A stretch of 64,000 nucleotides of DNA from Cantharellus purpuraceus. Lineage: Eukaryota; Basidiomycota; Agaricomycetes; Cantharellales; Hydnaceae. The translations under genes and the position numbers were made by a program. The notes below the pieces were generated by a model. The model was not told where the DNA came from. It saw only the letters and a program-made list of their open reading frames with translations, and searched no databases. This document shows positions 1 through 61,106 of the stretch, in pieces (positions within the stretch are counted from its first letter, which is position 1; every line of letters begins with the position of its first letter). The stretch lies in contig JALBUN010000012.1 in assembly GCA_025174535.1 (NCBI GenBank), positions 248,001-312,000 on the forward strand. Reading direction: 5' to 3'.

Positions 1-459
1 AGTGGTTGAGCCGGGCGGTTATCAAAGCATGGTCAGTCTTTTTTGATATCGTACAGACCCCCAGGACAGCATGACAGCCGCAATCAACTGAGACATACAG
101 TTACTGTCAAAAAATGGCTCTGAAACCTTGAGATTTGCCATTCCGCGTGATTAGGGTCCTCTGCTTCAGGCAAAGACAGGATTTGCCACCAAGATAAGTT
201 GAAGTGAGTGTCAGCGCTCTGGCAATTTCTTGCCAGGGTAACAGTTTGATGTATATCTCGAGGTGGTGAAAACCGAGGGAAAGTTTCACGTAAGCACTTG
301 TCACCGCTGTCACAAGTACAAGGCAACGAAGCTTACAATTACTGCCCTGCTCGACGTTGGGAACGTCCTTTTCGACAACGACGACGACGACGAAGTCCTG
401 CTCGGCACGCTACTGTTACGAGCCACACACTCTTTCATATAAATGTTCTGAATCTCCAA
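1..459. other. 5' flank of chitin synthase, no gene seen
   Basis: I see no convincing coding region here. The open frame of the chitin synthase extends upstream to about 298 but begins with TTG, and its low-complexity Arg-rich translation looks like 5' UTR read in frame. The stretch just before the start (about 340-455) is pyrimidine-rich with CGACGA runs, which suits a leader or promoter-proximal region. No TATA box was identified with confidence. Confidence 0.4.
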
Positions 460-3400
460 ATGGCACACCCTCACTTTGGACCCGCTCGTTACGCTTCCTC
501 TGACGTCCCAATCCCTACTTCTCGTGTACCCACGCAGTTCAAGCAGCCTCAGACAGGCACGCTCCGCCGTGGAAAGACACTTACTCGACCGGAACGTGGC
601 GTCGCACCCGTCCCTCTTATCAATCCCAACGCTATCCTTCCTCCCTCCGCATCAGGCTCCTTACCATCTCACACCCATCCGGCACCACCTGTTACCACTT
701 GGAGTTTATGGAATATATTCTCTCATGCTGTCACCTTTTGGGCCCCTCCAATCCTCCTCTCTTCTATTGCGGGCCTTAAGGATCGTCCTACTCGGCAGGC
801 GTGGCGTGAAAAGATTGCCCTATGCTTCATTGCATTAGTGCTTGGCGGCCTCGTCGGGTTTGCTACAGTTGGCCTTAACAAGGCCCTCTGTCCTACAAAT
901 TTGGGAACCAGTCCAGACCGTTTCACCAGCGTAGGTTCTGATCCCAACGCGTTGGGAATACAAGGGCTCGTCTTCAACATCTCAGACTCTAAAGTTACGC
1001 CCGAAGTCAACTTCTACTCGTTGGCGACTCAGTCACCAGTGCAAGATATCACCACTTTATTCAGCCGGACAGCCTCCAACTTTTCGGCTTGTAATGGCCT
1101 AAGCTTCAAAGTTGCTACCGACAATCCATGCCCAGATGCTGCCGCCTGCCCTCTTCCCTCTCTCGGTCAAACCACATTCTCTCAGCTATCTCTCCGTAAT
1201 ACCTCCAAGATTGTCGGTTATGACTGGGTTCATCTTCGCAATCTCAACAACTATCTTGTCATCGATGGCGCAGTCCTTAATTTGAACACATATATCAAGG
1301 CGCACCCCAAGCCCATTCCTACTGACAATGTGGACGTTGCCATCCGTACCGTTCTTCGGCAGCAAGCTATGGGCAGCGGCAAGGATGGCACCCGCCTTTT
1401 CTACAGCCGCACCGACCTAAAGTCCGCTGTACCCTGCTTAGTACAGCGGTACTATGCTGGCAATATTGATAAGATCACCCCCGGTTGCTTCGTCTCGCAG
1501 CTCTTTCTCTACACGGGCTTGATTGTCATCCTCGGACTCGTCCTCGCCCGTTTTGCCATGGCTTGCATTTTCAATTGGTTCATATCCGCGCGGCTCGTAG
1601 CGCCGCCGAAGAATCTTAGCCGAACGGTCATTAGCCCGTCCGTTCTACCCGAAGGTGCAAATGTTGCCATCAACAACAAGAATGGCACCGCGCCGTGGGC
1701 TGGCCCCAACGGTGCACCTAGAAGCAGAATGCTGAGCAAGCCGTCATCACAACCTGCTGCAAACATTACCATGTCCCAGATTGGCGCAGAGTTGTTTGCA
1801 ATCTGTCTCGTTACTTGTTACTCTGAGGGCGAGGAATCCATCCGCACAACGCTCGATTCCATCTCCGCTACCTCGTATTCAGATGCCAGGAAACTTCTGT
1901 TTGTCGTGTGCGATGGCATGATTACTGGAGCAGGCGAAAAGCGCAGCACACCAGATATCTGTGTTAGTTTGCTCGAGGCGGATCCTCGCTTTGGAAACCC
2001 CGAACCCATGGGCTACTTTGCTGTCGGCTCGGGGCCCAAAAAGGAGAACAGAGCTATGGTCTACGCGGGTCATTACAGTGAGTCACTACTCTCCTCCACG
2101 GGATAAGCACTTTATAAGTATCGCAGCTGTTGCTGGACGTCGGACTCCAACAATGATTATTGTCAAGTGCGGCACAGAGGCCGAAGCACGGACTGAGAAG
2201 AAACCTGGGAACCGCGGCAAGCGCGACAGTCAGCTCGTCCTCATGAATTTCTTCTCCCGTGTCACCTACAACGACCGCATGACACCGCTTGATTTCGAAA
2301 TGTTCCGCAAGATCCAGTCCCTTATGGGTGTCACTGCCGATTTCTTTGAAGTCTGTCTAATGGTCAGTGTTTTGATCTCTCATCTCGATTATTTGCTGAC
2401 GTTGGCCCAGGTCGATGCCGATACTAAGGTCTTTCCAGACTCCCTTCGCTTGCTCGTCAACAGTATGCAGCACGACAATTTCATCATGGGGGTGTGCGGC
2501 GAGACGCGAATAGCCAACAAGCGACAGTCTTGGGTAACGGCAATTCAAGTTTATGAATACTTCATCTCGCATCACCTTGCAAAGGCCTTCGAATCAGTGT
2601 TTGGTGGTGTTACCTGTCTTCCTGGGTGCTTCTCGATGTACAGACTCAAAGCCCGGAAGGCGACCGATGACGACTGGGTCCCGATCCTCTGCAAACCTGA
2701 GATTGTACGTGAGTACAGTCAAAGTGAGGTTACCACGCTCCATCAGAAAAACCTGCTTCTTCTTGGAGAGGATCGTTTTCTGACTACGATCCTCCTTCGT
2801 GCGTTCCCCAACCGCAAGATGATGTTCTTGCCCCAAGCGCGTTGTCGTACGGTAGCACCTGATACATTCTCTGTACTGCTATCACAGCGCCGGCGGTGGA
2901 TCAACAGTACCATCCACAATCTTATGGAGCTCGTCCGTGTGCGTAATCTCTGTGGGACGTTTTGCTTCAGCATGCAGTTTGTCGTTTTCATGGATCTACT
3001 CGGGACGGTGGTACTTCCTGTCGCGATCTGTTTGACCTACTCACTTGTCGTAAACATGATACTCAGCCCCCCAAAAACTTTCGATCAGGCCATTCCACTC
3101 ATGCTACTCTTGGCCGTTATTGGACTGCCTGGAGTGCTCATTCTTATCACCACAGGCAAAGTGATTTATGTCTTTTGGATGTTAATATATCTTGTCGCAC
3201 TCCCTATATGGAATTTCGTTCTGCCGGTTTATGCGTTCTGGCATTTCGATGACTTCTCATGGGGCGAGACTCGGTAAGCAGTTCGCTGGTTTTCAATCTA
3301 GGTTTTGCATTAATTCGTACTTCAGAAAAGTGGAAGGAGAGGCAAAGGGTCAGGCCCATGGCACAGACACGGGTACTTTCAACGGTAGCTCAGTTCCAAT

Positions 3401-27011: not shown

Positions 27012-28035
27012 TTAGTCCCAAGCTGTGCCAGGCTGCTGCGTCTCCGCAGGCCATGCTGTGCTAACGGGCTCCGCTGACCAATCTGTGACACCAGCAGCAC
27101 CAGTGGGCTCCCAGTCGAGTGCACCTAGAAAGAAAGAAGGAAAATATCAGGTTTCTCGATTCATGGACTAATGTAAAGGCGCCTTACCGCCTTCACCGGC
27201 TACTAGAGTGGGGTTGATAGCCCCCGCCTGAGGACCGGTCCCTACTTCCCACTCTCTGACGTCTGGTGGTGGGGCCTCCTCTACAGCGGTCACGACGGCA
27301 GCCTTGGCAGTGGTCGCCTCCTGCTGCTCCTTCTCGACCTCCTCGGGATCGCGGTAGAAGAACATGTCAACCATGACGTTCCAGCCGCCGCTCGTCCTAG
27401 GGACCGTCCCTCGCAGACGCAGCACCTCCCTTGCGAGGAGCCACCACACGAGACCGATTGCGTGCTTCGACTTGTTGTTCGTGGGGATGGCGACGTCAAC
27501 GAATTTGAGAGGGGCGTCCGTGTCGCAGAGGGCAATGACAGGGATGTTGACGTAGGAGGCTTCACGAATGGCTTGGTGGTCAACGCGCGGGTCCGTGACG
27601 ACGATGAGCCGGGGCTCCTTGAAAGAGCGGGTGATGTAGTTGGTGAAGCTACCGGGCGTGAAGCGACCGGCAATGGCTTGCGCACCAGTGTTGGCGGCGA
27701 ATTTGAGCACGGCACGTTGGCCGTAGGGACGGGCAGAGATCACACAGACGTCGTTCGGGTTCTCCACGGCAGCGATGATGCGTGCCGCGAAAACAAGCTT
27801 TTCCCAGGTCTTTCCGATGTTGATGATATGGATACCTACAACCACACATTAGGAAACCAAAACCCTTTCGAGGGAATGCAGCAGTCTGGTTTGACGAACC
27901 GTCCACACGTCGCTTCCAAACATAAGGTTCCATGTGCTTCTCGCAGTTCTTGGTACCAATATGACAGTGGGCAGCGAGGAGGAGTTGGATCTCCTCATCG
28001 GTTGCACTCAACACCGACGGTAGTTTTGACGACAT
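27012..28035 (-). CDS. RPS0: 40S ribosomal protein S0 (uS2)
   Basis: Small-subunit ribosomal protein of the uS2 family, needed for late maturation of the 40S head/body interface. The exons are 28035-27900, 27835-27188 and 27124-27012, giving 298 aa in perfect phase. Signatures are [55 protein letters not shown] and [16 protein letters not shown]. The acidic C-terminus contains [16 protein letters not shown] and repeats of the W-rich tail type. The first intron uses a GTTCGT donor. A 278-codon open frame on the plus strand (27462-28298) is an antisense shadow caused by the biased codon use of this highly expressed gene. Confidence 0.97.
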
Positions 28036-30042: not shown

Positions 30043-32354
30043 TCAAGTAAACAATCGCAGGAGATCCGCGATCACGACTTCGATGTCCGGTCTATCGTCC
30101 GGATTTATGGCAGTACAGGTTTGACAATACGCCCACGCAGAATCGTTCAGCCATACATCCGCGATAGGTCCAGTGGGCCTAGGCGAACGCTTGTTGCGGA
30201 GGAGGTCCACAACGACATGCAAATCTTCCTTCAGATTGAAGAAAGGTTTGCGATTGCTTAGGACCTGATGAAAAAGAGATATTGTTATCCGCGCCGTAGT
30301 GTGATAAAGTAGAAGTGAAACCAAACCTCGAGCATGGTATGGCCAAATGCGTATATATCTGTTTTAGGTGACTTCAGGGGACCTGTCTCTTCATCCCCAG
30401 CACGGATGAGCTCGGGGGCCATCCATCTGGGAGATCCAGCTCCGTGCAGCATTGTGACTGTTTTTTCATGACTGATCCGTGAAAGTCCGAAATCCGCTAG
30501 AACCGCACACCCAGCATCAGAAATCAAGATGTTCGCCCTATGTATGAAAGCATAGGATGTGAGAAGATGTTAGAAACCAGGGTATGTGGACACGAACCCT
30601 TTCAGATCTCCATGTATGACAGGTGGTTGACGAGTATGCAAGTACTGAAGACCTTCTGCGGCCTCTATGAGCTGTTTTGTGAATGCATTAGACATCAGAG
30701 GAAAGCACTGAAATATGGCGTATACCAGACGACATCTATCAGCGTAAGGAGAAACAGATGTCAAGTAGTGCATAATGTTCCCATTTTGACAAAACGGCGA
30801 AACCTTAATATAGGGTTGAATGCATGAAGAGTGACAAAAGAAATGGTGCGTACCATGAATAGCGACATGATATCGTACTCGCAAATGCCATAAAACTCTA
30901 GGATTCGGGGATGTTCAAGCTCAGCCCATATACTAGCCTCTTTCAAAAAACGCTATAACCAATGCACATAAATTTAAGAGACATTCAGAGACTCCAAGCG
31001 ACTTACTCGACGTGCTCTGTCCTTGTCCCTATCTGTCGATCCTTGAAAGAGTCTCACCAGTTTGAGTGCTACCTTCTCTGATCCAAGTCTTTCGCCAAGA
31101 TAAAGGTCACAACTGCCCCCACCAGCAATAGGGTGCTCGCTCAGCTTCTTGATCTCTACGCCAATATTCTTCAATGTCCGTGGGACAACCACACGTGTTG
31201 TAGAAAGAGATGAGATAGTCGCGTCGGCTAGTTCGACCATTTGTCGAGCCACCTCCGCCATCGTTGGCCTCTGTCTCGGGTCTCTTTCCAAGCAATGACT
31301 GATAAGGACCCATAGACCACCTGAGAGAATATTGTTCCCCGTGATTCCAGGGCGCTCAGGGAGCTGGTCCAGAAGAATCTTTCTGATAATTTCTCCATAA
31401 TGCGCATGTGACATCCTGAATCCCAGAGCCTTTCAGTTACAAGGACCGTCAGAACAAGAACAGCGCGGGTTCAAAGAGGACAACCAACCTCCATCATCGT
31501 CGTTCCAAATGCAAATACGTCGTCTTCAAATGGTGTCTGCTCCAGAGACGATGGTAAGGAGTGAGGTGGAAGACATGGAGCGTAGCAACTTCCAGGACTA
31601 TCTGAAGCATAAGCCTGTAGAAAGCTAGAAAGATACGCGCGTCCCGTTTCAGAAATTAAGATAGTGGACTGAAGAGATATAAGAGTGTGACAAAGAGGAG
31701 TCAATGAAGAGTTCTGACCAAACGAAGATTGCCATACACTATTCCCAGGCTATGGAGGTGGGCAAGACCACGAGCAACGTCTGCCATCAATTCGACCGTA
31801 TTTGCATTTGAAGAAGTATCACCGGGGTTCCTAAGGAGATACTTCCTGAGATTACCCTCTGGCATCCACGGTGAGACAAGAGCCATGCTATCTTGTAACC
31901 GCGCAAAACCAAGAAGAGGCATGACATTCTCATGATGCATTGCACAAGACCAAGCGTGTGCTTCAAGTAGGAAATCCTAATTTCAATTAAGTATAGAGTA
32001 AATAATTAATAAGAGCTTGCACACATTTACTCGACTGGCAGTGAAAGGCGGGGTGAATAGCTTGACAGCAACTAGTGTATTATCGGATAATTTTCCAAGC
32101 CAGATGGAAGACAGCACGCCCCGAGCAGCAGGATAATCGCCCAGAAGCTTGACCTCGTTTGAAAGGTCTCGTATTTTGCTTAATACAGGATGAGAAACCT
32201 CGTGTATCATGCTAAAATCCAAAGGACTCTCGGGAGGTGAGTCCGAGTCCGTGTTCTGAAAAGTATGGTGTGAGAAGGCCCACGCATAGACTCTTATGAT
32301 TTCCCATGAATCCACCTCACTTACGAAAGTGATCCTTGAAAAAGCTTGCTCCAT
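30043..32354 (-). CDS. Tandem pseudokinase-kinase protein (TKL-like)
   Basis: Predicted cytoplasmic Ser/Thr (TKL-like) protein kinase with two kinase domains. Ten exons, all in phase, give 599 aa: 32354-32325, 32255-32031, 31976-31719, 31668-31489, 31429-31007, 30952-30854, 30803-30726, 30671-30598, 30537-30327 and 30264-30043. Domain 1 (about residues 40-290) keeps the VAVKL lysine and EAHAW but has YGNLRLSTILI in place of the HxDxxxxN loop. It also has YLSSFLQ in place of DFG, so it should be inactive. Domain 2 (about 320-599) has a glycine-rich loop IAGGGSCDLYLG, VALKL, IHGDLKGANIL, LADFGLSRI and RWMAPEL, so all key catalytic residues are present. Both domains start alike (IRDLSNEVKLLGDYP and LKNIGVEIKKLSEHP), which suggests internal duplication. 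The layout resembles JAK kinases but is surely independent. The start follows the conserved MEQAFSRI / MGQAVSSI beginnings of the two copies. Confidence 0.85.
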
Positions 32355-32576: not shown

Positions 32577-35001
32577 CTTAGATTCCTCCAATATTTTGCT
32601 TGAAGCGCTGTAAAATACACCTTTGTCGCACGGCTACAATTGTTACCATAGGCTAGTCTCTACACCACCTCTCTGCTATAGGACGATTCGATTATTTAAA
32701 TCACTTATCCAAAGTAAACAATTGACGGAGGTCAGCGATCACGACTTCGATGTTCGGTCTTTCGTTTGGATTTATAGCAGTACAGGTTTGACAATACCCC
32801 CACGTAGAATCGTTGAGCCAAACATCTGCAACAGGTCCAGTGGGCCGAGGTGAACGTCCATTTTTGAGGAGTTCCACAACGACATGTAAATCCTCCTTCA
32901 AATGGAAGAAAGGCTTGAGATTGCTCAGAACCTGGGGTAAAAGCGAGGCTCAATAACCAACTCTCCAACGAAAAGAAAGTGAAAACAAACCTCGAGCATG
33001 ATATGTCCAAATGCGTATATATCTGTTTTAGGCGACTTCAGCGGACCCGTCTCTTCATCCCTAGCACGGATGAGCTCGGGGGCCATCCACCTGGGAGTTC
33101 CAGCTCCGAGCAACGCTGTAGTCGTTTCTTCAATACTGATTCTCGAAAGTCCGAAATCCGCGAGCACGGCACGCCCGACATTAGAAATCAGTATGTTCGC
33201 CCTATGTAAATACGAGTTATAAAATGCCAGGAATCTAATTTTTTTGGAACAAACCCTTTCAGGTCTCCATGTATGATGGGTGGTTGATGAGTATGCAAGT
33301 ACAGAAGGCCATCTGCGGCATCTATGAGCTATGGTGTCCATGCATCAGACACTAGAAAAACATATTAAGATAAAACATACCAGACGTTGTCTATCAGCAT
33401 CGGGGGCGAAAGACGTCAAGAATTGCATGATGTTCCCATATTGATAAAACGGCGAAACCTTAATGTAGAGTTGGATGCATGAAGGGTGACGAAAGAAATG
33501 GTGAACAGTGACATTGTACCGTGTTCGCAAATGCCATAAAATTTCAGGATTCGGGGATGCTCAAGCTCAGCCCATATACTAGCCTCTTTAAAAAAACACT
33601 ATAAGCAATGCCCATGAATTTAGAAACTCGACATAGAAACTCGAAGCGACTCACTCGACGTGCTCTATCCCTATCCGTATCTGTTGATCCTTGAAATAGT
33701 CGCACCAGTTTGAGCGCTACCTTCTCAGACCCACGTCTTTCGCCAAGGTAAAGGTCGCAATAACCCCACGAGCAATGGCATGCTCACTCAGTTTCTCGAT
33801 CTCGGTGCTGATATTCTTCAGCGTCGGCAGGGAAACTACGGGGTTTATAGAACGAGGCGAGATAGACGCCTCGGCTAGTTCAACCATTTGGTGAGCCACC
33901 TCTGCCATTGTTGGTCTCTGTGCTGGTTCTTCCTCGTGTGTACGATCGATCAGGAGCCATAGTTCAGCGATGAGAAGATCCTCCGCCGTAAGTCCAGTGC
34001 GATCAGGGAGCTGTGCCAACAGACACCCCTTCTCCTTCAATTTTGTATACTGTTCAGATGTTTTTCCAACTCCCAGAGCCTTTCAGTCACAAGAACCATC
34101 AGTATAGGGGGCAGCGCTGGCAAGCCAGTGACCAACCCTCGGTATGACCCATCCAAATAAAATACGTCGTGTTTCAATGATAGCAAATTCTTCTGGCCCA
34201 CGGATGCTGAGGAGTCAGGTGGATTGTATTCAAGGAAGTCGGTGCCCCAGTCAATTCCAGTGTATTGACCTTGGAGTTCTATAGGAACAGCGACTACAAA
34301 GTCAGAAACATACGCGCGTCCCATCTCAGATACCATGATAGTGGCCTGATGAGCTGTGAGGGTGTGACCAGTGGAATTAATGAAGAATTCTGACCAAACA
34401 AAGGCTGCCATGGAATATTCCCTGGCTATGGAGGTAGGCGAGGCCACGAGCAACGTCTGCCAGTAACTCAACCGGATTTGCATCTGGGTGCGCGAGGAGA
34501 TACTTTTTGAGGTCACCCTCTGGCATCCAAGGCGAGACGAGAGCCATTCTGCCTTGCAGCCGTGTGACACCAAGAAGAGGCACAATATTCTCATGATGCA
34601 TTGCGCGTGACCACGCATGCGCTTCACTCAGGAATTTCTAAATAAAGATTAAGCATGTACTATATCATCAATAAGAGCTCGCAAAAACATACTTGATAGG
34701 TGGTGGAATGCCAACATAGCTTGACAGTTACCCGTGTATTATCAGGCATCTTGCTAGGCAAGGAGGATCCTAGGTATGAATCAGGAGGAAGACTACATAG
34801 ATACTGGATTTCAGTTGAAAGATCTCGTATTTTATGTCTTGTGGAGCAAGAAGATCCGTCTTTATCTGAGGATTCTCAGGATATGACTTGGTGCATATAC
34901 CGCTGTAATTCTTTTACAAGCACGATGTGAGCGTGGGGGAAGCATGGACTTCATGGATCCACTTCACTTACAAGAATTATACTTGAGACAGCTTGGCCCA
35001 T
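32577..35001 (-). pseudogene. Decayed tandem copy of the pseudokinase-kinase gene
   Basis: Head-to-tail paralogue of the gene at 30043-32354, with the same exon order. The start MGQAVSSIIL and most exon borders are kept; the active-domain motifs IIHGDLKGANIL, VLADFGLSRI and RWMAPEL are intact. I see three lesions relative to the intact copy. (1) A TGA in the homologous frame lies at 34876-34878, soon after the second exon begins. (2) A net 2-nt loss near 34150-34175, where copy 1 has the block ending in TTMMEV, changes the phase before the next exon. (3) A 1-nt deletion near 33758-33768 in the glycine-rich loop leaves YLGERRGSEK in another frame. The 3' flank starts at 32577 by homology, and the stop of the last exon is at about 32695. 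It could still give truncated transcripts. Sequencing or assembly error is the main alternative, but three separate lesions argue against it. Confidence 0.75.
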
Positions 35002-37209
35002 TTCAAGGTGCATTGGATGGAATCGTTCAAAAGGGCTGAAATATGAATCGCTTGCACCATCCTCTGGCATGTGATATATGATAACATTGTATTCGCCCAC
35101 CTTGTACTAATACATGTAGTGTGTCACAACCTGTTTGGAGTCGTCTCATGTCGGTTTCCATGATCTGTCAGCTACTACGCTCCATGTTTTCAAATCCATT
35201 AGCTTGTTCGAGATTTGTCGTTGAGAAAGCCTCCCGGTTTCTGAACGCAACCTTCAAACCTCTAAGCTTGATGGACCCGGAACGATGTGCTTATGTAATA
35301 AGCGTCCAGTCGGATGTCTGATAGCTTGTCAATGTTTCAGAGTACAACCGTTTGGATCGACGAGATCATCCAGCTGTTGAGGATAAGGACCGATGGGACC
35401 GATACAACCTCGCTAGTTTAGTTCCCTTTCTGCTTAGTAATAGGACGACGTGGTTTTTCCCCTACTGCGTCCCCCAAAAACCCCAACACCAGCACTCATG
35501 TACTAATTGAGACGAACAATCCAACCTCCAAAATAGCATGTCACCTTGTTGTATCTTGGCAAAGGGGAAGAAAAGCGCTTTGTTTCTAGAGCGATGTATT
35601 AGCAGACACTGCTTCTGGCGAGTCGAACAGTGCGGCAGTGCGTCCAGTAAGCGCCTGCCTCGCAGCGCTGGAGACGTGAACCATCAAACCATGAATAAGC
35701 AGTCCCACAAACATAGAACCCCGTTTTGGACACTCCTATTGATACGCTCACCTCTTGTTTCCAATGGCTGCGACGTACCGCCCATGTTTCAACATCTCAA
35801 CCCGTATCGCCACAACAGATCAATTTTTTTTGTAGATTGCAGGCTATAGCATTGGTGAAGGAGGAAGTTTGACCGTTGCCAGCGCACTGTAGTTCAGGTC
35901 CGGCGGTCTTTCACCTCATTGAACGAAGTGACCATGGGCTATGTATGGGGTGATGGCGCATGCTGGTTTTTGGAGCAATACGGCGAGACGTGATTGTGTC
36001 GCCAGACAGTGCTCCATGATAACTTGGGCATTGCCTCGCTTGAGAGATCCCTTACTGCAGATACGCTTGTCTGAAATGATGCGGAGTGCGGACCCAAGAC
36101 CAGAATAGGGGGGTAAATCAATACAAGCAGTGAAGCTTAGCAGTGCGGGTACGTGAATTTCGCGTGATGCTACAGGCGTGAAGGCGGCATGAGGCATATC
36201 GATGAAGCCCACGACTCAGGATAGTCGCTGTCAGTTAAAAGGCGACGGCCAGGGGAAATGCCAAGGTACCGTGAATGCTACTATAGAATCACAAACCCAG
36301 GCACGGAATATTCACGGTAACTTAATTCTAGGACACATGATCTTGCTTGATTTCTGTTCCAGCTCGTCCGTGAACTCGATGAACGACGAGAAATAAAGTT
36401 CAAGGAGCTTATTGAAATGCGAGTGGGCGTTTCGAGCGTAGTTCATAAGAGAAGAGTGAAGCCCAGGGCATGAGAAGCATCTATGCTGTGTAAATCCGAG
36501 AGAACTCTTCCAAAAGACGCCAGGTAGGCTTGACAGAAAAGTTCGTGTCGCGTCTCGTTTAAACCGATGTGGCATGGTTTAGTATTTATATAACTTTGTT
36601 TGGTTGAATGAGTGGGGTTCTTCTCGTTGCATGCGATTGATCAACGGAGAATCTACCCATGTTGCTACACTCCTTTCGATCGGTGAAGGCAATATCCATC
36701 ACCGGTATATAACGGCAGATGCCTGTCACGATAAACTGGGAATGACTTGCTGGGTATCTGAAACTGGATCTCCGCGTGCCAGACCGGGAGGCAGAAGATT
36801 GGTTGGCCGCGAGAGCCGTTGTATCCATGCAGGAGAGCGTCCTTTTAGAAACTTTGGTGCCTTACGAGTCCGTAGAAGGTAGAAACGTCAAGAACAAGGA
36901 GAGAGAGTCGGGAATACGGAGAGCACGGACGGCTGTGCGCCTAACTGCACCGATTGAGCGGGTAATAAATTGATCATGTGCAGTGTTGTCGGATACGAAC
37001 GTACAACACTTGAGTGATTGATACCCAAACCAGAGCTGCTCGGCGCGCTCTTTCGGCATCCTAACGTGGTCAGTCAGTATAGTATGTCGCCAGCTCTCTG
37101 GGCTCCAAACTGCAGCGGCAGTCCGTCCATGCTTCCCAGCGACCAGTATATGTTTATACGCCCATTTGGCGACCTGACCCTCTCCTATTATTCTTCTCCG
37201 TGCTAGAGT
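35002..37209. other. Gene-poor 2.2 kb stretch
   Basis: No protein that I can recognise is encoded on either strand. Short frames such as 35538-35849 (+) and 36862-37281 (-) lack domains and have poor codon structure. The left end (to about 35240) is the 5' flank of the kinase repeat. An AT-rich TATTTATATAAC element lies near 36583. I saw no transposon termini. Confidence 0.35.
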
Positions 37210-40200
37210 ATGCCAGCATACACTGCAAGTCCTCGTATGCCCATCTTCACTTGCTATCTCAGCAGCCAGCACCATTAACACTTACTTTTCTTCGTTTAGC
37301 GCTTCCTCCTCATCCTAATAACAATATTCATCGATCTTGGTCAGACGAGCAAGTCCCTGTAACCAGCTACTCGAGTGAACCTATACGTCCTGCACCACGT
37401 TCCTCCTCCTTCTCCGCGTCTCGAGCGCCTCAATTCGACTGGAGGAACAACCCTCCCCCGCCTCCTGTTCCCCCTTTACCTCCAGCCCTTCTGCCCGGGT
37501 TTCACAGTCCCCCATTGGTCCACTCGAATCTCGACTTTACTTTCACAGAGGCACCTCGTCGTCCTCCCCCCCCACAGCCGAGGCCAGGACCCTACACTGG
37601 CCCCGACTTTCCCCAGAGTATCACTCCATCACATCCCCCCCTAGTGCAATATTCTCCTCCTATATGGTCTTCGATCGGGCAGCGCAATAACTATTTTCCT
37701 TCTAATTCCAGCTTTGGCTCTCCTAAGCCTCCGGTACCTTGGCCAGCTAACAATTATGTTTCTAACACTCCGGGGCTTGGAGATAGGCGTCCTTCATCCT
37801 ACGCGCTTGCTCAGACTTGCAAAATTTCTGATCAGTCGCCTTCACCCCCACCCGCTATCCCTCCTCGCCCGATTACCACCCAGGGTGAAATTAGGTTTGA
37901 GAGGTCGCCTCCGATGCCCCCACAAGCAGCTGCACCACCACCAGTTCCGCCAAAAACACTTACGTTTTCGATGACGTCCTCACTTATGTTTCCCAGTCGG
38001 GATGATCTTCAGACTTCTTCGAGCCAAGGCAATATAGGGCCGCCATCCTCTGATGAACCTATCCCAGAAGCTCAAGAGACAAGACCAGCGGAAGCTTTGG
38101 AAGTAGATTTACCAACAGCTGCAGAGGCAGGACCATTTGAAGTCCCGGAAACAAGAGCACCCGAGGTTCCAGAATCAGGACCACTCGAAGCACCAGAGGC
38201 AGGACCACCTGAAGTCTCAGGAGCAGGATTACCGGAATACTCAGAGGTAGCACCACTCGAAGTCCCAGAGAAAGGAATCCTTCCCTCTACCTCTGCGATG
38301 CAGGCAACAGAGACGTCACCGTTAGACTCTGACCTCAAGCGTGCCATGACACATTCTCTAGCTGAGTCGCAAAGGAAGCAGTCTGTCAGAAAATCTCAAG
38401 AAGACGATGATGATGAACTCGCGCGTGCTCTTGCCGAGTCCCTCTCTCTGTCAACCAATCTCGAACGATACGCAAATTATTCGCGAGATGACGCCTCCAG
38501 TTCCGCCAAAGTGACGCAATTGGATACAAGATCAGCCAGTTCACTAATGCGTGTACAAGGACCGAATGAAAGCGGGACATCACGACGGAGACCATCTGTT
38601 CCGGACTCAGACCTCTTATCGCGTGAGGAACTCGAGGACCATGCAGCACATGGACAGATCATGCAAGAGTTGGAAGACGAAGAAGTGACAAGGAGGCTCC
38701 AAGAGGAAGAGGAAAAAAGGGTGGAGGCTGAACTGCAAGAACGCGGGCGACAAGCTGAAGCACGGGAGCGGTTGGACGAAGCGCTTACAAAACGGCTTCA
38801 AGAGGAGGAGGCCAGAAGACTGGACGTCGAAAGATTAGAGCGTGAACGACAGGACGAAGAGAGGGCAAGGCTGGACGCTGAGCTTGCTCGAAGGGAGGCG
38901 GTTGAAGAAAGGGCACGGAAGATGATCCAGGAGGCCCAAGAGCGGAAGGACGCGGAGATGGCACGAAGGATGGCGGAGACTAATGAAGCGGAACGACCAC
39001 ATGCCTCCAAAGGCGCCTTCGCAGCACAGGGCGCGGGTTCTACACCGGCAGGTCCAAGCCCACCTCAATACACTGAGGTCATGGGCTCGCCACCCCGTAT
39101 GCCAATGGGCTCGCCACCCCGTGTGCCAATGGGATATACACGTCCGACGGCGCGACCTGTGCAGTCTTCACCGCAGCTCTATCATGGGTCGCCTCAGCTG
39201 ACAAGGCGTGCGGTGAGTGCACACGCGAGCCAGCCAGGACCAGGGCCGTCGCGACCAGCAGAACAAGGGGATAGAACAAGGTCAGCGACGGTGAATGGTA
39301 ATGCTTTTAGTGGCGGTAACAGGAACAATGGGACGCGCCCGGGGAGTGGGCCGTCACAATCCGCTCCGGCCAATGGCAATAGTGCGGGTCCGTCGAGGGG
39401 AGGTCCTGGTGCGGGTCCATCAGGTCCAGTTCGTAGTGCAAATCGGCCGAGGACGAGTCCCGGTGCAGCTCCTAGTGCAGCTCCCAGTGCAGCTCCTAGT
39501 GTGGTCTCGGAAGGCGATGCCATAGGATCCGATGTGTTGAAGGGCGTTGGTGTGTTTTGTCGTTTAATCGTCAGGTACCACCCTCTTACGTTGCCATTGT
39601 TTGGAACTTTAGCCTATGGATTCAAACCACCTGACACCCGGTCGACCCCAGCGCAGTCGGGAGTGTTACCGGTATGCCCTCCGTTCCCCGAAGTCATCAG
39701 TCTCTTTCGCTCGCCTTCACCACCCTTCTACATCATGGCAACATCTTGGAGACACCTCATGCGTCTTCTGGCGCAGCTCGAGACTCGTATCCAGGCGAAC
39801 CTTGAAGTCATCGCGAATTCTAAAGAGGAAAACCTCTTGCGGGTTGTGGTTCAGTTTGTCAAGGTGAGTGTGATGGTTGGACATGACTGGAACCATGTAA
39901 ACATACCATTCATCACAGCTGCCGTACACTGCGAACACTTGGCGTACGATTGTACATCTCACACTGGACCAGCCAGTCCCACGTAATATGCAAAATGCCT
40001 GGCGTTTTACAAACGGTGACACAATGACGCCGCCGTACTCCTACACGTTGGCGCCGCCCCTTCCTTACCTCGTTAATAACACTCAGTCGCAGTTCTACGT
40101 GATCCCGCTCTCGACGACATCACCGTTCCCGATCCTACCGATCACGCTGCCGAATCTGGCGCTGTACCTGCAGTCTGCGATGCGGGACTCTCGCGCGCGG

Positions 40201-41530: not shown

Positions 41531-41746
41531 ATCTGCATCTGGTCAGGAATGTAGAACGAGTTGCCTGTAGCATATTTAGTTGTTAATTTAACTCTTTCCT
41601 CGTGACTGCCTTAGGTATACCACTAATCTGACTCACATGCTTTGTAGTGAGTGATTGATAATCAGGGTAGCCAGTTGATTCCGAATACCGGGAAGCAGGC
41701 GTTCTATCATGGGGGGACGAATTGCGAGAGTTGTTATCTGTCCACG

Positions 41747-44246
41747 ATGCTCTCCAAGGAGCAAGTGCCCTTGCTTGCGGATGAAGAGCCAGATTTGCCT
41801 CTTGCACACCCGCCCCGGCGCGAGAAGCAGGCAGAGTCAGCCCACTCAGTATTGCTTCGGGGTTTGCTTTGGAACCTCCGGATATGGTGTATACTGTTTG
41901 TCTGTCTTGGGATTGTGGGCGTCATCATCGTTCAGACATGGCATCCGTCTGTAAGTTATGGAATTAGTATTCGTCATCCACCGACGACTCTTCCTGGATG
42001 GCCCACCAAGCGCAATCCGGCGTATCTGATTCATGCCAAGCATGGTGCAGTCGCTGCAGAAAACATCCTGTGTTCAGAGATGGGCGTAGATGTCCTCAAA
42101 GATGGAGGGAATGCCGTCGACGCGTCCGTTGCAGTAACCCTCTGCATAGGCGTTGTCAACATGTTCAGGTGCCATTTGATCCCTTGCCAGGAAAGTGCTC
42201 CCCAGTTCACACCGCAAACAGTTCCGGAATCGGTGGCGGTGGATTCATGACGGTGCGGCTTCCGACATCGTCTTCAAATTCCACCTCGGAGGGATGGACT
42301 GTAGACTTTCGTGAGACTGCACCTGCTGCTGCGAACGCTACCATGTTCTCGCATGACCCAGAGTCTTCAATGTATGGGGGATTGAGTGTCGGTGTGCCGG
42401 GCGAGTTGAGAGGCTTGGCCGAGGCTCATCGCAGATGGGGAACGCTCCCTTGGAAGAGACTCGTGGAGCCCGCTGCACGATTAGCGGAGGGTTGGCCGGT
42501 CGGGAAGGAGCTCGCACGACGCATTCAGGTATGTACTTGAGCTAGAGTGCTGGACTCAGGGTTTCCATGGTCCCTCAGATGTTCAGCACTCTAATGCTCG
42601 CGAATCCCGATTGGCGATCTGTGTTTGCGCCGTATGGAGAGCTTCTCGGTGAAGGTGATCTCATTCGCAGGACGAATTACTCTCGTACATTGCATACCAT
42701 CGCAGAACAAGGCGCAGAAGCATTTTATTCCGTGGGCGCATCAGTCGTAGTGCATGATGATTGTATGCTGACAGTGTGTAGGGTGCCATTTTAGATGCGT
42801 TGCTAGAGAAAATCCATACCACAGGGGGGATTCTTACCGCGGCAGATTTTGCGGGCTATACTCCTTTAGTAATGCCTGCACTCAAAGGGTCGTTCAAGAA
42901 TCGTACAGTGTACACGTCCGAGGCCCCCACCTCTGGTCCTGCGTTGCTGCACATGCTCAATCTTCAAGAACGTTTTGACATGGAGAATGCGGATGCAGGT
43001 CTGAAACTTCACCGGTTTGTGGAAACATTGAAGTGTGAGAATTGTGTGATGTCTGAGCAGTTGCAATATGTACTGATTGAAGTGTTGAAGTTGGCTTTGC
43101 AGCGAGGTATGGCCTGGGTCGTCATATGATTTTGGTGTCTATAGTTTCTGCACAGGACCAGGATATTTGACCCAGCGTTTGTCAATGGCACGGCACCCTT
43201 TGAAGATATTCCCACTAAGGAGTTTGCGGCTGCCGTTTTCCCTAACATCACTGACGTACGTGGCTCACACAGTATCATATACTCTTTACTTGATATTTAA
43301 TTTAGAATACTACTCATCTACCGGAGTATTACCACCCTGTCTATGATGTGGTAGAAGATCATGGAACAGTGCGTCCCGTCATCGCTGCCTGCCTAACTTT
43401 CTTTACTAGTGTTGTCGCAGTCGCACTCTTCCATTGTGGATCAGTCGGGAATGGCTGTCGCGATAACATCGACAGTCAATCTCGTGTTTGGCTCCCAAGT
43501 ATTGGAGCCCATGACGGGCGTCATTCTTAATGACGAGCTCGACGATTTTTCCACCCCAGGAAGGCCAAACGCGTTTGGCTTGTGGCCGTCTCCCTGTAAG
43601 TGTGAATGTCCACCCCTGCCATCTTCGCAATCTCGCGCTCTGTGGCTTCCCGAATTCTGACTTTATGTTGTATTATATAGACAATTATCCCGCTCCGGGA
43701 AAGCGGCCGCTTTCATCCACATGTCCCACGATATTGGAGCACCCAGACGGGTCCTTATACCTCGTACTCGGGGGGTCCGGTGGATCTCGGATATTCGGGT
43801 CTGTCGCACAGGTGATTCTGGGGGCTGACACTGTGTCGTCTGCCTCCGCGCCCCGGGACGAGATGGGGTGGATTGATCTTAGTGCAGCGGTGGAGGCGCC
43901 CCGGGCGCATGATCAGCTATTTCCGTTGATGGTGGATATGGATAGTACATTTGATCAGACGAGTGTAGATGCGCTGCGGGCGAGGGGGCATAATACCACA
44001 GGTAGGCGTTTTCGGGTGTGCAGACATGCGTCCTGGGAATTTTCTTGCGGCTAGGATGCTGATGGTGCGTGCAGTGAGCGATATCAATCGTGTTGCGGCT
44101 GTTATACAGGCTGTGATGGCCAAGGACGGCGAACTTTTTGGTGAGTGGCTCTTCTGTGGATGTGTTGCGGTAGATAGTGGTGGTACTTATATCATCCAAC
44201 AGCGGCGAGCGATTCGCGCAAAAATGGTATCGCGGCCGGTTATTGA
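41747..44246 (+). CDS. Gamma-glutamyltransferase
   Basis: Ntn-hydrolase that removes or transfers the gamma-glutamyl group of glutathione (GGT family; yeast Ecm38 is vacuolar). It is a type II membrane protein with a short cytoplasmic N-terminus and a membrane anchor (RIWCILFVCLGIVGVIIVQTW). The heavy subunit contains HGAVAAENILCSEMGVDVL, GGNAVDASVA and SGIGGGGFM. The autocatalytic cleavage site is the Thr in EDHGTSHSSIVD, preserved after removal of the intron near 43370-43410. The light subunit shows AITSTVNLVFGS, GVILNDELDDFS and PLSSTCPTI, then LVLGGSGGSRI. The last intron joins GELF to AASDSRKNGIAAGY and the stop TGA at 44244-44246. All expected catalytic blocks are present and the enzyme should be active. 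Confidence 0.94.
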
Positions 44247-56619: not shown

Positions 56620-59600
56620 TCACCAACATACCGCTGTAATACGTACATGGTCTAGTGCTTCGGGAAGAGGAACAATGTTCATGTGATTAGGAACAGAGCC
56701 ACCATTCTGCAAAAGGTCGTCGTAAGTCGTCCTAAGCCATCCATCAACTCAGTAGATGACTTACCAATTTCTCCTCATCACATAGACGGAGGCATGCGCG
56801 TAGTTCTCTAGGAAGCTGGGATGGTAAGATGACCACATGGATCGGTGGGTCAAAAGGTCGTCTGGGAGCCGCAACCACAGCAATATTCTTGATGCATAAT
56901 GCAGGATCAAATAAGAAACCCTCGCGATGTGGATAGAGAGGGCTCACCTCCGCCAGAATTAAAGCTAACTGAATGTCCGTACGCTTGCCACGTGCAGCAG
57001 GACTCACGATGACGAAAACCTCCAGTCTACAGTCCACAACAAAAATGGAGTCGTCTGGCAACTCTCGAGCAGAGATGCTTGAGAGACTTTGCACCTAGGG
57101 AGGCTCCGTCCGCTGACGAGTTCCAACTAAGCATAGGAATCCACTCACTGGTAACTTGGTCTTGCTGGAGTCGATGACATGAACTCTTGCTCCCAATCTG
57201 TCCAATTGGCCTCTAAATTTCCAGTAATCGGCATTTGCATAATCATCATTTCCCAAGACCATCCAGAACATCTCATCTTCCTGTCCCTCCTCAAATTCCA
57301 AGACGTTGGCGGAGGCAGTCGTCAAAGACTGTCCATAGGTTAAGGCTACTTTCCGCTCATCCTCAGAGGCACCGCGGCCATGCCAGACATACAGTGCACC
57401 TAAGACTGAAAGGCAGTAGCTGTATGCAGAGCACAAGTTCGAGATATGCTATTGCTCTTAAATCAATGGGGTAGGCAATAATGTCCAATGAAACCACATG
57501 CTTACCAAATCTACTTCATCAACGAATATAGAATCACCGACGCGGTGAACCCGGTGCATGGCGGTGTTTTCGCTTGACCAATGTACTCGTGCACCCTTCA
57601 CAGCGAATGGGAATATATCCTTTGACCTCAGGGGTAGGTGAACTCACCTGTCGAATTGCCAGCACTCCCCCAAGTGTATGAATAAGTCCTGGTGGTTCAG
57701 ACCCTTGGGAGCAAGAGACCTGAATCAAGATCCCTGAGCCTGCAAAAATATCCAGACAGTGTCAAATACCTACACCCATTGTACCAAACCGCTCAGCCAA
57801 TTCAGTCGCTTTACGCTCTTCTTTTTCACCCAGAATGGCATGCCTGCCTTGCCATATCCACACCTTGCTTGAAACGAGCTGTCCAGACAATTCCTTGGCG
57901 CGATGGACAATAGCAACAACTTCAGAATCATAAAACACGTTTGGTTCCCGTGTTACTGCCGTTGCTAAATAACCGGACAACGAAAAAACGTCCACTGAAA
58001 TCGTCTGTAAGTTCAAGTCAGGAGAGAAAGGCACTTCTTTTAAGACTGATTGGAGATTAAACGCAGGTGGCAGTCTATCATGGTGTTCTTCCATTTACGG
58101 TTAGACAAGGAAATACAAATTCAAGAACTCCAACCTAGGTGAACCAACGAGTCTCCCTCCTTGACTGTTTCCTGTTTCCGTTCTGGCTCGGGCTCTGACT
58201 TTGACTCAAGAGGCTCCATTTTCATAACTGCTGCAGGGGGACTCGACTCTTGTAGTCTGTTATTAAACTCGCGGATCTTCGACTGTTCAACTTGCGTAGA
58301 GCCTCTTGATAATGAGCCTTGGGGTGTTGCAGTAGGCGTCTTTTCTTCGACAAGTGGAGGCAGTGTTGGAACGGGAAATCGATCGTAGCTGGACCTTCTT
58401 CGCTCGGGCGGCTGACCTCCTGATACAAAATTCTTTCCCCACCCCGCAATGGCTGCCTTGACGTCCGTACGGGGGGTTTCATCGACCCCATCATCGCCTG
58501 GCAGGTTCTCAGAATGACCTGACATCTCTCGTGACTTAGGCTCAGGTTCTGGTTCTGGTTCAGGCTCAGGCTCAGGCTCAGGTGTCCAGGATGTTTCACG
58601 AATATGTTGTTCATGTTGTTGCAGTGCCTGTGCAACGTCCATAACGGTCGCTCGCTGTCCTGTACTGGGTATACGAGAATGTCGTGAAGGGGTCATGGGT
58701 GATTCATCCTGGCTAGGTGAGGGGCTGGCGGGTGTCATCGGACGTGGGGCGTTTAATGGAGGGGGTGTGGTCTTTCTTATGTTTGGTAACGGACTATAGG
58801 ATGCCGCTGGTGCGGATCCCCCCCCATTTGGAGGTCTTGACTGCATCGGCGAAGCGGGGATTTTCACTTGAACTCGAGGCTGATACACCAGGGCATCCTT
58901 TAACCGTTGGATATTATTCAAGGCAGAAGATTGAGGTTCTTCGAGAGAGGGCACGCCTTGAGGTTGTTTGTCTTTGTACGCGGTTTGAGGAGTTCCCTTG
59001 GCATGGATAGGTGTCGTGGATACCTCAGCAACAGCGGCAGAGTTGGTCGGTCTAGGCTCCGAGAGATCCTTGTTGGTTGCTGTCGCCGATGGACCGGGCG
59101 TTTTCCGTGGCTTGCGAGCGCGATCTCGAGTAGGCTTGCGTACATATCAGGGAAACCAACTTTGATCGAAGTAAGAAACTTGGACTCACATGACTCAATG
59201 GACCCGTAGCGCTAGACAGATCGCGCAGACGTTCTGGCTCATGAGTCTCTACTAGTCTGCTGTTATGTGCAGAGCCAGAGGAAACCGATGAGTTTATTGA
59301 GGCCTGGTGCCTGGGTGGAAGTGATGCAGCGTTGGCCATTCCAGGCAGTCGCACCGGTGCGGCTCTCTCTTGTTCCTCAACTTCGGCTCTGGGCTTAACT
59401 AATCGTGGAGATATAGTACGAGGGACGATCACCTGCTGAGTCGACTTCGATGGTGATATGCTAGGGGATATATATGGCACTTCACGTTGACTGGATGATC
59501 TATTCAAAGTTGAAGGGGACTGGGAAGGCGAGGGCGACACCACATTGGCTTGCCACCTGTCCAAAACAGTTGGTCTTTGACCAGGAGATCCAGAACTAGT

Positions 59601-61106
59601 GCTTCGGTCTTGTTGTACAGGAGTGTCACTATAAAGCTGGGAGCTAGCTTTGACACGCTGTTCCACGAATCCCCGACCTTGGAGCCTGCTGAGGCTTGGA
59701 TGCAAATCTTGCGTAGATGGCGTGACACGAAGAAATGCTGGGGATGGGTTCGAGGAAGCAGCTGTGACCGGGGATGGTTGAACAATAATTTGTGGTTGGA
59801 CAGGGCGTGCCAGAGAAGGCGTCACAATCGGTGATCCGGGTATGGATCGCGTTTGGGGAGTACTTCGACCGGATGATGGGGAATGACTGGTAGCATCCTG
59901 TTGAGAAGATGAACGGGACAAGACAGGCTTTGGAGGTGTTGAAGTTGTTGTCGGTGGGGAACTAATGCGGTTAGGGTCACTCATTCCTGGGAGTGCACGT
60001 CCTTGAGTGGCCAATCTGGAAGACGATGAAGTAAAGACATCCAAAGGCTCTCCATCTGGCTGCCTAGTGAGACGAGGGGCCGAAGCTCGCCCTCCTATCA
60101 CCTCCGCCAAAGAAGTGGGTTTGGGGGGTGTAGTAATAACAGATGACGGCCATGATGAATCACTAGGATACGAGTGCTGGTGCTGTGGTTGGGGGCGAGG
60201 AAACTTAGGCTTTGTTGAGGTATCAGGCGGCATTCTCGGTCGCGGTAAAGGTGCGTCTTCTCGGGATATCTCAAAATTGCGCACAATCTTATCGGAAGGC
60301 TTACGGAGGATATCGGATTTCTTTGGTATTTCAGGAGATGATCTAGCGACTTCGTCAGGGGTTTGTCCTGAGGTGATAACGGAAGCCGGTGAGGTCGTTG
60401 GAACGTTGGATACATTATATTTCGACTCGTTCATGTCTATCTTCGACTCAGAACCCTTGACACCTATTTGTGTTTTGGATGCAAAACGACTTGCAGCGGC
60501 CAAAGCTTCACTGGGGCGTCCGAACACTGGATGAGGACCTTGCCGCCGTGTTTGGTCAAACAAGACTGGATCATGGGAGTCCACTTGGGGAGCAGGCTTG
60601 TTAAGCCTTGGTCCAGTAGCTCTTCCTCCGATAAAAGCTGCTAGGGATGTCCCTTCCTCCTTCGACGTAGAGGCTCCTGACGGCGACACCGACGTATGTA
60701 ACGAACCTAAGGCTGAGGTTGTAGAGCCAGAAAGCTTCTTGAACGCATCCAACTGGTGCTGCTCCCGATCTATAGTAGCTTGGGCATCTTGCTTGGGTTC
60801 ACCTGATGGCGGTGCAACGCTCTTCGCTGTGCATAGGTAGGGCAGTCAGTCACACAAAACGCCCAAGCAGAGAGACGCACTCCAATCTATCGAGCCTGTC
60901 GCAGTATTTCTCCTTCTCGCTCTCTCCAGTCTTGATCGGGTGATTTCCTCCTGAAGCCTGCGCTGCTCCGCCTCTTCATCGCGGTCGACTTCTTGCTGGA
61001 TAGCCTTGATTTTACTTGTCCATTCAGCAAGACCTGCATCTGGGCTGGACTTGGGGAGCTCAAAGGTGCGCCTGCGGGAGGCCGTGGGGCTCGATGGAGA
61101 GTCCAT
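56620..61106 (-). CDS. Gelsolin-repeat protein with long disordered N-terminus (DUF4045-like)
   Basis: Probable actin-binding or severing protein of the fungal DUF4045/gelsolin family. The start is ATG 61106 (MDSPSSPTASRRRTF); the upstream frame begins with TTG. The first coiled segment is GLAEWTSKIKAIQQEVDRDE with RRLQEEITRSRLERARRRN. Then come over 800 disordered Ser/Pro/Thr-rich residues with repeated LAAFIGGRATGPRLNK / LAEVIGGRASAPRLTR motifs and an EP dipeptide repeat. The C-terminal third has gelsolin-like blocks: ISVDVFSLSGYLATAVTREP, KVWIWQGRHA, KATELAERFGTMG and LYVWHGRGASEDER, then DSIFVVDCRLEVFVIVSPAA. The last exon ends HMNIVPLPEALDH and continues to TGA at 56620. Introns are approximate. 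The LxxxIGGRA motif occurs at least twice and may be a binding site (inference). Confidence 0.82.
58541..58585 (-). repeat. EP dipeptide repeat (GGTTCA/GGCTCA hexamer) in coding sequence
   Basis: A tandem hexanucleotide tract encodes about seven Glu-Pro pairs in the disordered part of the gelsolin-repeat protein. Because the unit is six bases, length changes keep the frame. Confidence 0.75.

Follow-up and report, generated by a model that had tools for sequence, protein, structure and literature searches.

The Cantharellus purpuraceus window analysed here, a stretch of 64,000 nucleotides of contig JALBUN010000012.1, carries one gene whose product is predicted to place a pseudokinase (domain 1, D1) directly upstream of an active-looking TKL-type kinase (domain 2, D2). 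The gene is best explained as one member of a conserved group of Agaricomycete tandem TKL-type kinases, a lineage whose D1 has turned pseudokinase. As an overall reading, we give an even chance to a conserved tandem lineage in which the pseudokinase D1 would serve as an input in cis to D2. This is a real and little-described fungal protein family, and what is new is the family and not a new principle.

Gene model, catalytic motifs and predicted fold

The gene model, rebuilt from the sequence, lies on the minus strand (32354-30043) and consists of ten exons and nine introns, all nine GT-AG and of 50-69 nt each. Its 599-aa product has the length given in the earlier note, and the 31489/31429 junction singled out there is one of the nine introns. 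The same note called the gene intact, which is true of this copy but not of its tandem neighbour, which is broken. Exon 5 runs open from the D1 C-lobe into the D2 N-lobe, and D1 and D2 therefore belong to one gene; with frame 31432-30974 open, this link is independent of splice inference. The D1 frame is open along its full length. PF07714 was matched separately in each half of the protein (bit scores in Table 1; Pfam cut-off 23.1), and PF07714 and PF00069 were the only Pfam domains found in the 599 aa at E 0.001, with no SH2. The description of two kinase domains in one TKL-like gene with no further domain is thereby borne out.

Table 1 Features of the window and their coordinates
Feature	Position	Strand	Remarks
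Tandem pseudokinase-kinase gene, whole coding span	30043..32354	-	10 exons, 599 aa, TGA at 30043
Exons 1-5 of the window gene	32354-32325, 32255-32031, 31976-31719, 31668-31489, 31429-31007	-	
Exons 6-10 of the window gene	30952-30854, 30803-30726, 30671-30598, 30537-30327, 30264-30043	-	
Exon 5	31007..31429	-	D1 C-lobe, linker and D2 N-lobe; inside open frame 31432-30974
D1, predicted pseudokinase, residues 51-291	31250..32135	-	exons 2-5; PF07714 84.5 bits
D2, predicted intact non-RD TKL-type kinase, residues 329-590	30073..31138	-	exons 5-10; PF07714 121.9 bits
D1 Asn168 codon, replacing the catalytic Asp (IVYGNLRLSTI)	31728..31730	-	motif reading
D1 SFL, replacing DFG	31618..31626	-	motif reading
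D2 catalytic Asp453 (VIHGDLKGANI)	30606..30608	-	motif reading
D2 DFG, residues 471-473	30486..30494	-	motif reading
Tandem neighbour copy, same two-domain order, broken	32701..34980 (start approximate)	-	D1 loop HGS
Chitin synthase	250-3274	+	ordinary neighbour
40S ribosomal protein SA	27171-27848	-	ordinary neighbour
Gamma-glutamyltranspeptidase	41651-44051	+	ordinary neighbour

Two further open frames in the window, 37083-39983 on the plus strand (967 aa) and 59055-60845 on the minus strand (597 aa), had no Pfam match at E 0.01.

The same positions were read in every domain through a profile of these kinases. In D1, D166 is replaced by N, K168 by R and N171 by T, DFG reads SFL, and the APE Glu is gone; K72 (the VAVK Lys), E91 (the helix-C Glu), D220 and R280 are retained. 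With both the catalytic Asp and the DFG Asp lost, D1 is a pseudokinase by the usual sequence definition, in agreement with the earlier reading of a domain without the Asp and Asn of the catalytic loop and without DFG that keeps the VAVKL lysine. We infer that D1 does not transfer phosphate. Since both Mg-binding residues are gone, use of Mg-ATP in the usual way is unlikely, and D1 probably does not bind it in that manner. An active kinase with a mis-assembled loop was ruled out, as the neighbour copy (HGS) and seven relatives likewise have no catalytic Asp at this site. D2, in contrast, retains K72, E91, D166, K168, N171, DFG, the APE Glu, D220 and R280. The claim that it keeps every catalytic motif thus stands for the catalytic residues but not for their surroundings: D2 has HGD where HRD is expected (non-RD), and its glycine loop reads GGGSCD, with the third glycine altered. 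Most domains examined read HG at this site, as D2 does: 154 of the 172 that have an 11-letter loop.

A structure was predicted with AlphaFold2 for a relative, P0003, using 33 sequences. The model (mean pLDDT 85.3) shows a kinase fold in D1 as well as in D2, with pLDDT of at least 90 in 17 of the 24 ten-residue blocks of D1. Between the DFG strand and helix F there is a helix in D2 and none in D1. The model gives no reliable placement of D1 relative to D2, because its pTM is 0.58. Fold searches with P0003, dominated by D2, matched TKL/TK kinases such as CTR1, RAF and RIPK2. By sequence, the best solved relatives of D2 are the kinase domains of CTR1 and TNNI3K (TKL/TK kinases), and the nearest of D1 are SYMRK and ILK, the latter a pseudokinase.

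Relatives, domain trees and domain order

A search of 5.8 billion proteins returned 1505 matches, and the comparisons that follow rest mainly on the best 120 of these; all proteins are cited by P numbers. The closest relatives among the matches listed are Agaricomycete proteins. The best eight, proteins of Gautieria morchelliformis, Ramaria rubella, Hysterangium stoloniferum and Sphaerobolus stellatus together with P0003, show 39-65% identity over 76-96% of the query, a likeness that would place the genome in Gomphales or a close order. Identity to six relatives is 44-59% in D1 and 64-84% in D2. Relatives from Gautieria, Ramaria, Sphaerobolus and Clavulina show the same order of D1 then D2. 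The earlier note had read the layout as an independent invention; that it stands alone or is a first in fungi is not supported: the order recurs in these relatives, tandems with a degenerate first domain occur in other Agaricomycetes, and GCN2 is a precedent.

The altered D1 motifs are themselves shared. Among the 172 domains whose loop has 11 letters, a YG catalytic loop is confined to eight, the D1 domains encoded by the window gene and present in P0001, P0002, P0003 and P0005-P0008. Seven of these eight have SFL for DFG, the corresponding stretch of P0008 being unaligned. In P0004, from Hysterangium, the first domain is intact and the second is mixed, a YG loop of 12 letters preceding a DFG that is intact; this protein is taken to be a chimeric gene model, was omitted from the trees and was counted as intact-then-dead in the order count below. 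P0003 comes from contigs no longer than 2,032 bases, and its 583-aa frame runs through both domains without interruption; because the window gene has nine introns, P0003 is most simply read as a spliced transcript spanning the two domains. The proteins of Clavulina and Ceratobasidium have a D2 of the same clade preceded by a degenerate D1; in the Ceratobasidium P0015 type, D1 keeps the Asp (LGD) and has lost DFG. A search with the P0003 D1 alone, among candidates sharing exact words, gave 10 matches, with P0003, P0004 and P0001 from the same lineage. An NCBIfam scan of P0003 and P0006 found no model above cut-off. P0006 and P0008, both from Ramaria rubella, have the same longest contig size (135,579), and related copies may adjoin there too.

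A tree was built from 74 domains. In it the window-gene lineage has a D1 group of seven rows (99/93) and a separate D2 group of eight (100/99). The D2s of Clavulina and Ceratobasidium are placed with the window-lineage D2 group (99/98), and their D1s fall with the window-lineage D1s at weak support (72/83, ten rows). A single D1 clade that includes the divergent P0015 type was not rejected (p-AU 0.19), and in a larger quick tree the tree constrained in this way scored higher. The pseudokinase-kinase pair may well predate the split of Cantharellales (Clavulina/Ceratobasidium) from the window-gene lineage. P0052, a single-domain Ceratobasidium protein, lies inside the D2 clade; either D2 can exist without D1, or the P0052 gene model is partial. 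In Thelephora, Mycena, Pisolithus and the Suillus/Rhizopogon lineage, the tandem kinases cluster with one another, by their own protein or lineage, and therefore reflect separate duplications or losses. In Thelephora, the dead D1 of P0039 is sister to the intact D1 of P0025 (100/99), indicating that catalysis was lost there after the tandem arose.

Two intron positions are exactly common to D1 and D2 and a third agrees to within one base, so that descent of both domains from one intron-bearing kinase would fit. The trees do not put D1 beside D2, and a tree holding the two together, calculated on a reduced row set, was neither the best one nor rejected (p-AU 0.18). The tandem may have arisen either by internal duplication or by fusion.

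To count domain orders, we took the query and the 120 listed matches (121 proteins), scoring a domain as dead when the catalytic Asp or the DFG Asp was missing. At least two domain pieces were present in 53 of the 121, and 49 of these had at least two pieces of at least 165 aa, which left out P0008, P0009, P0034 and P0045. Among the 49, 23 are dead-then-intact (the window gene included), 16 have both domains intact, 3 are intact-then-dead (P0004 included), 3 have three domains (AAA, APA, PPA) and 4 are undecided. When a two-domain protein has one domain dead and the other intact, D1 is thus the dead one in 23 of 26 cases. This is no census, as matches were ranked by likeness to the window protein and 13 of the 23 dead-then-intact proteins come from its own lineage; we treat the bias toward death of the first domain as a lead. 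Another 112 proteins that first came up in two other searches lie outside the count; one of these, P0121, has the reverse order, with an intact first domain and HGS in the second.

The Clavulina and Ceratobasidium relatives have an additional, helical-looking N-terminal region, which the window protein does not have. Pfam found no MLKL_N in these Cantharellales regions. When the N-termini of P0009, P0012, P0129, P0015, P0016, P0022, P0023 and P0026 were pooled, they matched the N-termini of MLKL_N type in P0134, P0137 and P0152 with an hhalign probability of 85 (E 6e-6). The match scored 42.3, compared to at most 15.2 in 60 column shuffles, 14.2 when reversed, and 20.8 and 13.5 for two other N-termini. 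Taken apart, P0012 with P0129 matched the MLKL_N type (E 1e-4), the P0016 group and P0009 did not, and the three N-terminal groups hardly match one another. P0134, P0137 and P0152 are single-domain Agaricomycete TKL kinases from Ramaria and Gautieria with an MLKL_N-type N-terminus, which is above the Pfam cut-off in P0134 and P0152 and below it in P0137.

Constraint on D1 and its possible role

The neighbour copy lies directly upstream of the window gene, with 346 bases between its stop codon and the window gene ATG. It looks dead because of a one-base deletion in the glycine-loop region of D2 and the loss of an intron donor through a nine-base gap. A search of the genome for D1 residues gave matches at this locus only, among the best candidates scored. 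Comparison of the tandem copies gave an omega of 0.59 for D1 (95% of resamples 0.42-0.85; 247 codons, four exons) and of 0.21 for D2 (0.14-0.31; 259 codons), dN being inflated because the comparison copy is itself broken. This shows net constraint on D1 between the two copies. The constraint is uneven: exon 3, from helix C to the catalytic loop, is well constrained (dN 0.15, dS 0.70), the C-lobe part of exon 5 little constrained (dN 0.39, dS 0.47), and exon 4, which carries what used to be the DFG and activation segment, unconstrained (dN 0.54, dS 0.45; 51 codons, alignment uncertain). On exon 3 and the exon 5 C-lobe only, D1 omega is 0.45 (0.28-0.68). In these comparisons D1 evolves faster than D2, and its lower identity to the six relatives is what a faster-changing input domain should show.

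We put at about one half the likelihood that D1, itself non-catalytic, works in cis on D2 as its input module. D1 would touch D2 within the same chain and bind a partner, setting the activity of D2, a predicted Ser/Thr-type non-RD output kinase. D1 is best read as the input side because, although dead, it is conserved, joined to a live domain and faster to change than that domain. Against this, its faster change and the unconstrained exon 4 could stem from relaxed constraint, and the second copy is decaying. The control could have either sign, stimulation as GCN2 shows or inhibition as JAK does.

Tentatively, D1 may be an activator of the GCN2 kind, contacting D2 and needed for its full activity. 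The yeast pseudokinase beside its kinase behaves in this way, and the mouse GCN2 pseudokinase is reported to bind neither ATP nor Mg (PMC4014428), which fits a D1 without Mg ligands, but Pfam found no RWD or HisRS-like part in the window protein, and the best solved relatives are TKL and TK kinases. An equally tentative possibility gives D1 the part of a bait or of a module for recognising partners, the role proposed for the pseudokinase in plant tandem kinases, with D2 as the output. Pseudokinases have been discussed as baits in plant tandem kinase proteins (PMC6170490), and the faster change of D1 than of D2, fastest in the former activation segment, the non-RD output kinase, and the gain and decay of a copy at the locus would all suit such a role. 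Fast change alone is nevertheless weak evidence for it. We think it unlikely that D1 is a JAK-like switch that holds D2 inactive until a ligand or partner frees it. The domain order is the same, and in JAKs JH2 inhibits JH1 via N-lobe contacts (PMC5770812), but JH2 of JAK1, JAK2 and TYK2 binds Mg-ATP (PMC5770812), both Mg-binding residues being lost in D1, Pfam found no FERM or SH2 in the window protein, and GCN2 has the opposite sign (PMC4014428). That D1 is a functionless relic, decaying since the duplication, appears quite improbable: D1 is more diverged than D2, its exon 4 is unconstrained and the neighbour copy is broken, yet the loop signature is common to the window D1 and seven relatives, omega for D1 is below 1 overall, exon 3 is well constrained and the window D1 is open throughout. 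Two separate genes joined by error were rejected as hardly conceivable, as exon 5 spans both domains and the P0003 frame, best explained as a spliced transcript, contains both.

Comparison with known systems

GCN2, the eIF2alpha kinase of fungi and animals, carries its pseudokinase on the N-terminal side of the kinase and has an RWD region. The pseudokinase binds and stimulates its kinase, and GCN2 resembles the window protein as a fungal polypeptide with a pseudokinase beside an active kinase (PMC4014428). The window protein differs in having no HisRS-like or RWD part by Pfam at E 0.001 and in its TKL/PF07714-like D2, and we rejected GCN2 membership since these two regions were not found.

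JAK/TYK2 share the order of pseudokinase then kinase, as JH2-JH1, and the JAK2 pseudokinase inhibits its kinase, with a positive role too (PMC5770812). The window protein, however, has no FERM or SH2 (Pfam, E 0.001), and its D2 loop is HGDLKGAN, not of the AARN type in which the catalytic loop of tyrosine kinases ends (PMC3937382); Janus kinase membership was rejected on these grounds. The Mg-ATP binding described for JH2 of JAK1, JAK2 and TYK2 is a further difference from D1 (PMC5770812). Of the JAK-like layout proposed in the earlier note, the domain order survives and kinship does not: the comparison is fair for layout, not for membership. The window gene is not a one-off copy of animal JAKs, and its layout is kept in related fungi.

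According to a 2014 paper, GCN2 and the JAKs were the only proteins then known to combine the two kinds of domain (PMC4014428); the description of plant tandem kinases as a family dates from 2018 (PMC6170490). The plant proteins (WTK1/Yr15, RPG1) likewise have two related kinase domains in tandem, one of them dead, and the active domain is non-RD, as in WTK1 KinI (PMC6170490). They differ in their plant lineage and in that WTK1 has the active kinase first, whereas the dead domain comes first in the window gene. Among fungi, the enlarged TKL-/TK-like kinase sets of the Agaricomycete TKL/FslK expansion (PMC3937382; Laccaria TKL, PMC2838846) are similar; in the main texts of both papers 'tandem' and 'two kinase domains' occur 0 times, as does 'pseudokinase' in that of PMC3937382. 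A literature search, with most subscription journals beyond its reach, found no paper that deals with mushroom TKL proteins of the tandem pseudokinase-kinase type. The tandem kinases of Suillus, Thelephora, Mycena and Pisolithus have two or three PF07714-type domains, often with a degenerate one first, but in the trees these domains cluster by protein or lineage.

On a broader view that we consider doubtful, tandem kinases whose first domain died and came to act as a sensor for the second evolved several times in Agaricomycetes, as the fungal equivalent of JAKs and of the tandem kinases of plants. The window-gene lineage would then span Gomphales-type fungi and Cantharellales, the latter possibly with an MLKL_N-like helical region ahead, hinting at a recognition or cell-death pathway. 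Such a family would give a testable function to part of the large, mostly uncharacterised expansion of mushroom TKL kinases. Control of a neighbouring kinase by a pseudokinase in one chain is known for JAKs and GCN2 and has been proposed for plant tandem kinases. A separately evolved mushroom set, in which catalysis was lost repeatedly and mostly in the first domain, would add natural replicates, useful for learning why it is the first domain that dies and which sign its control takes.
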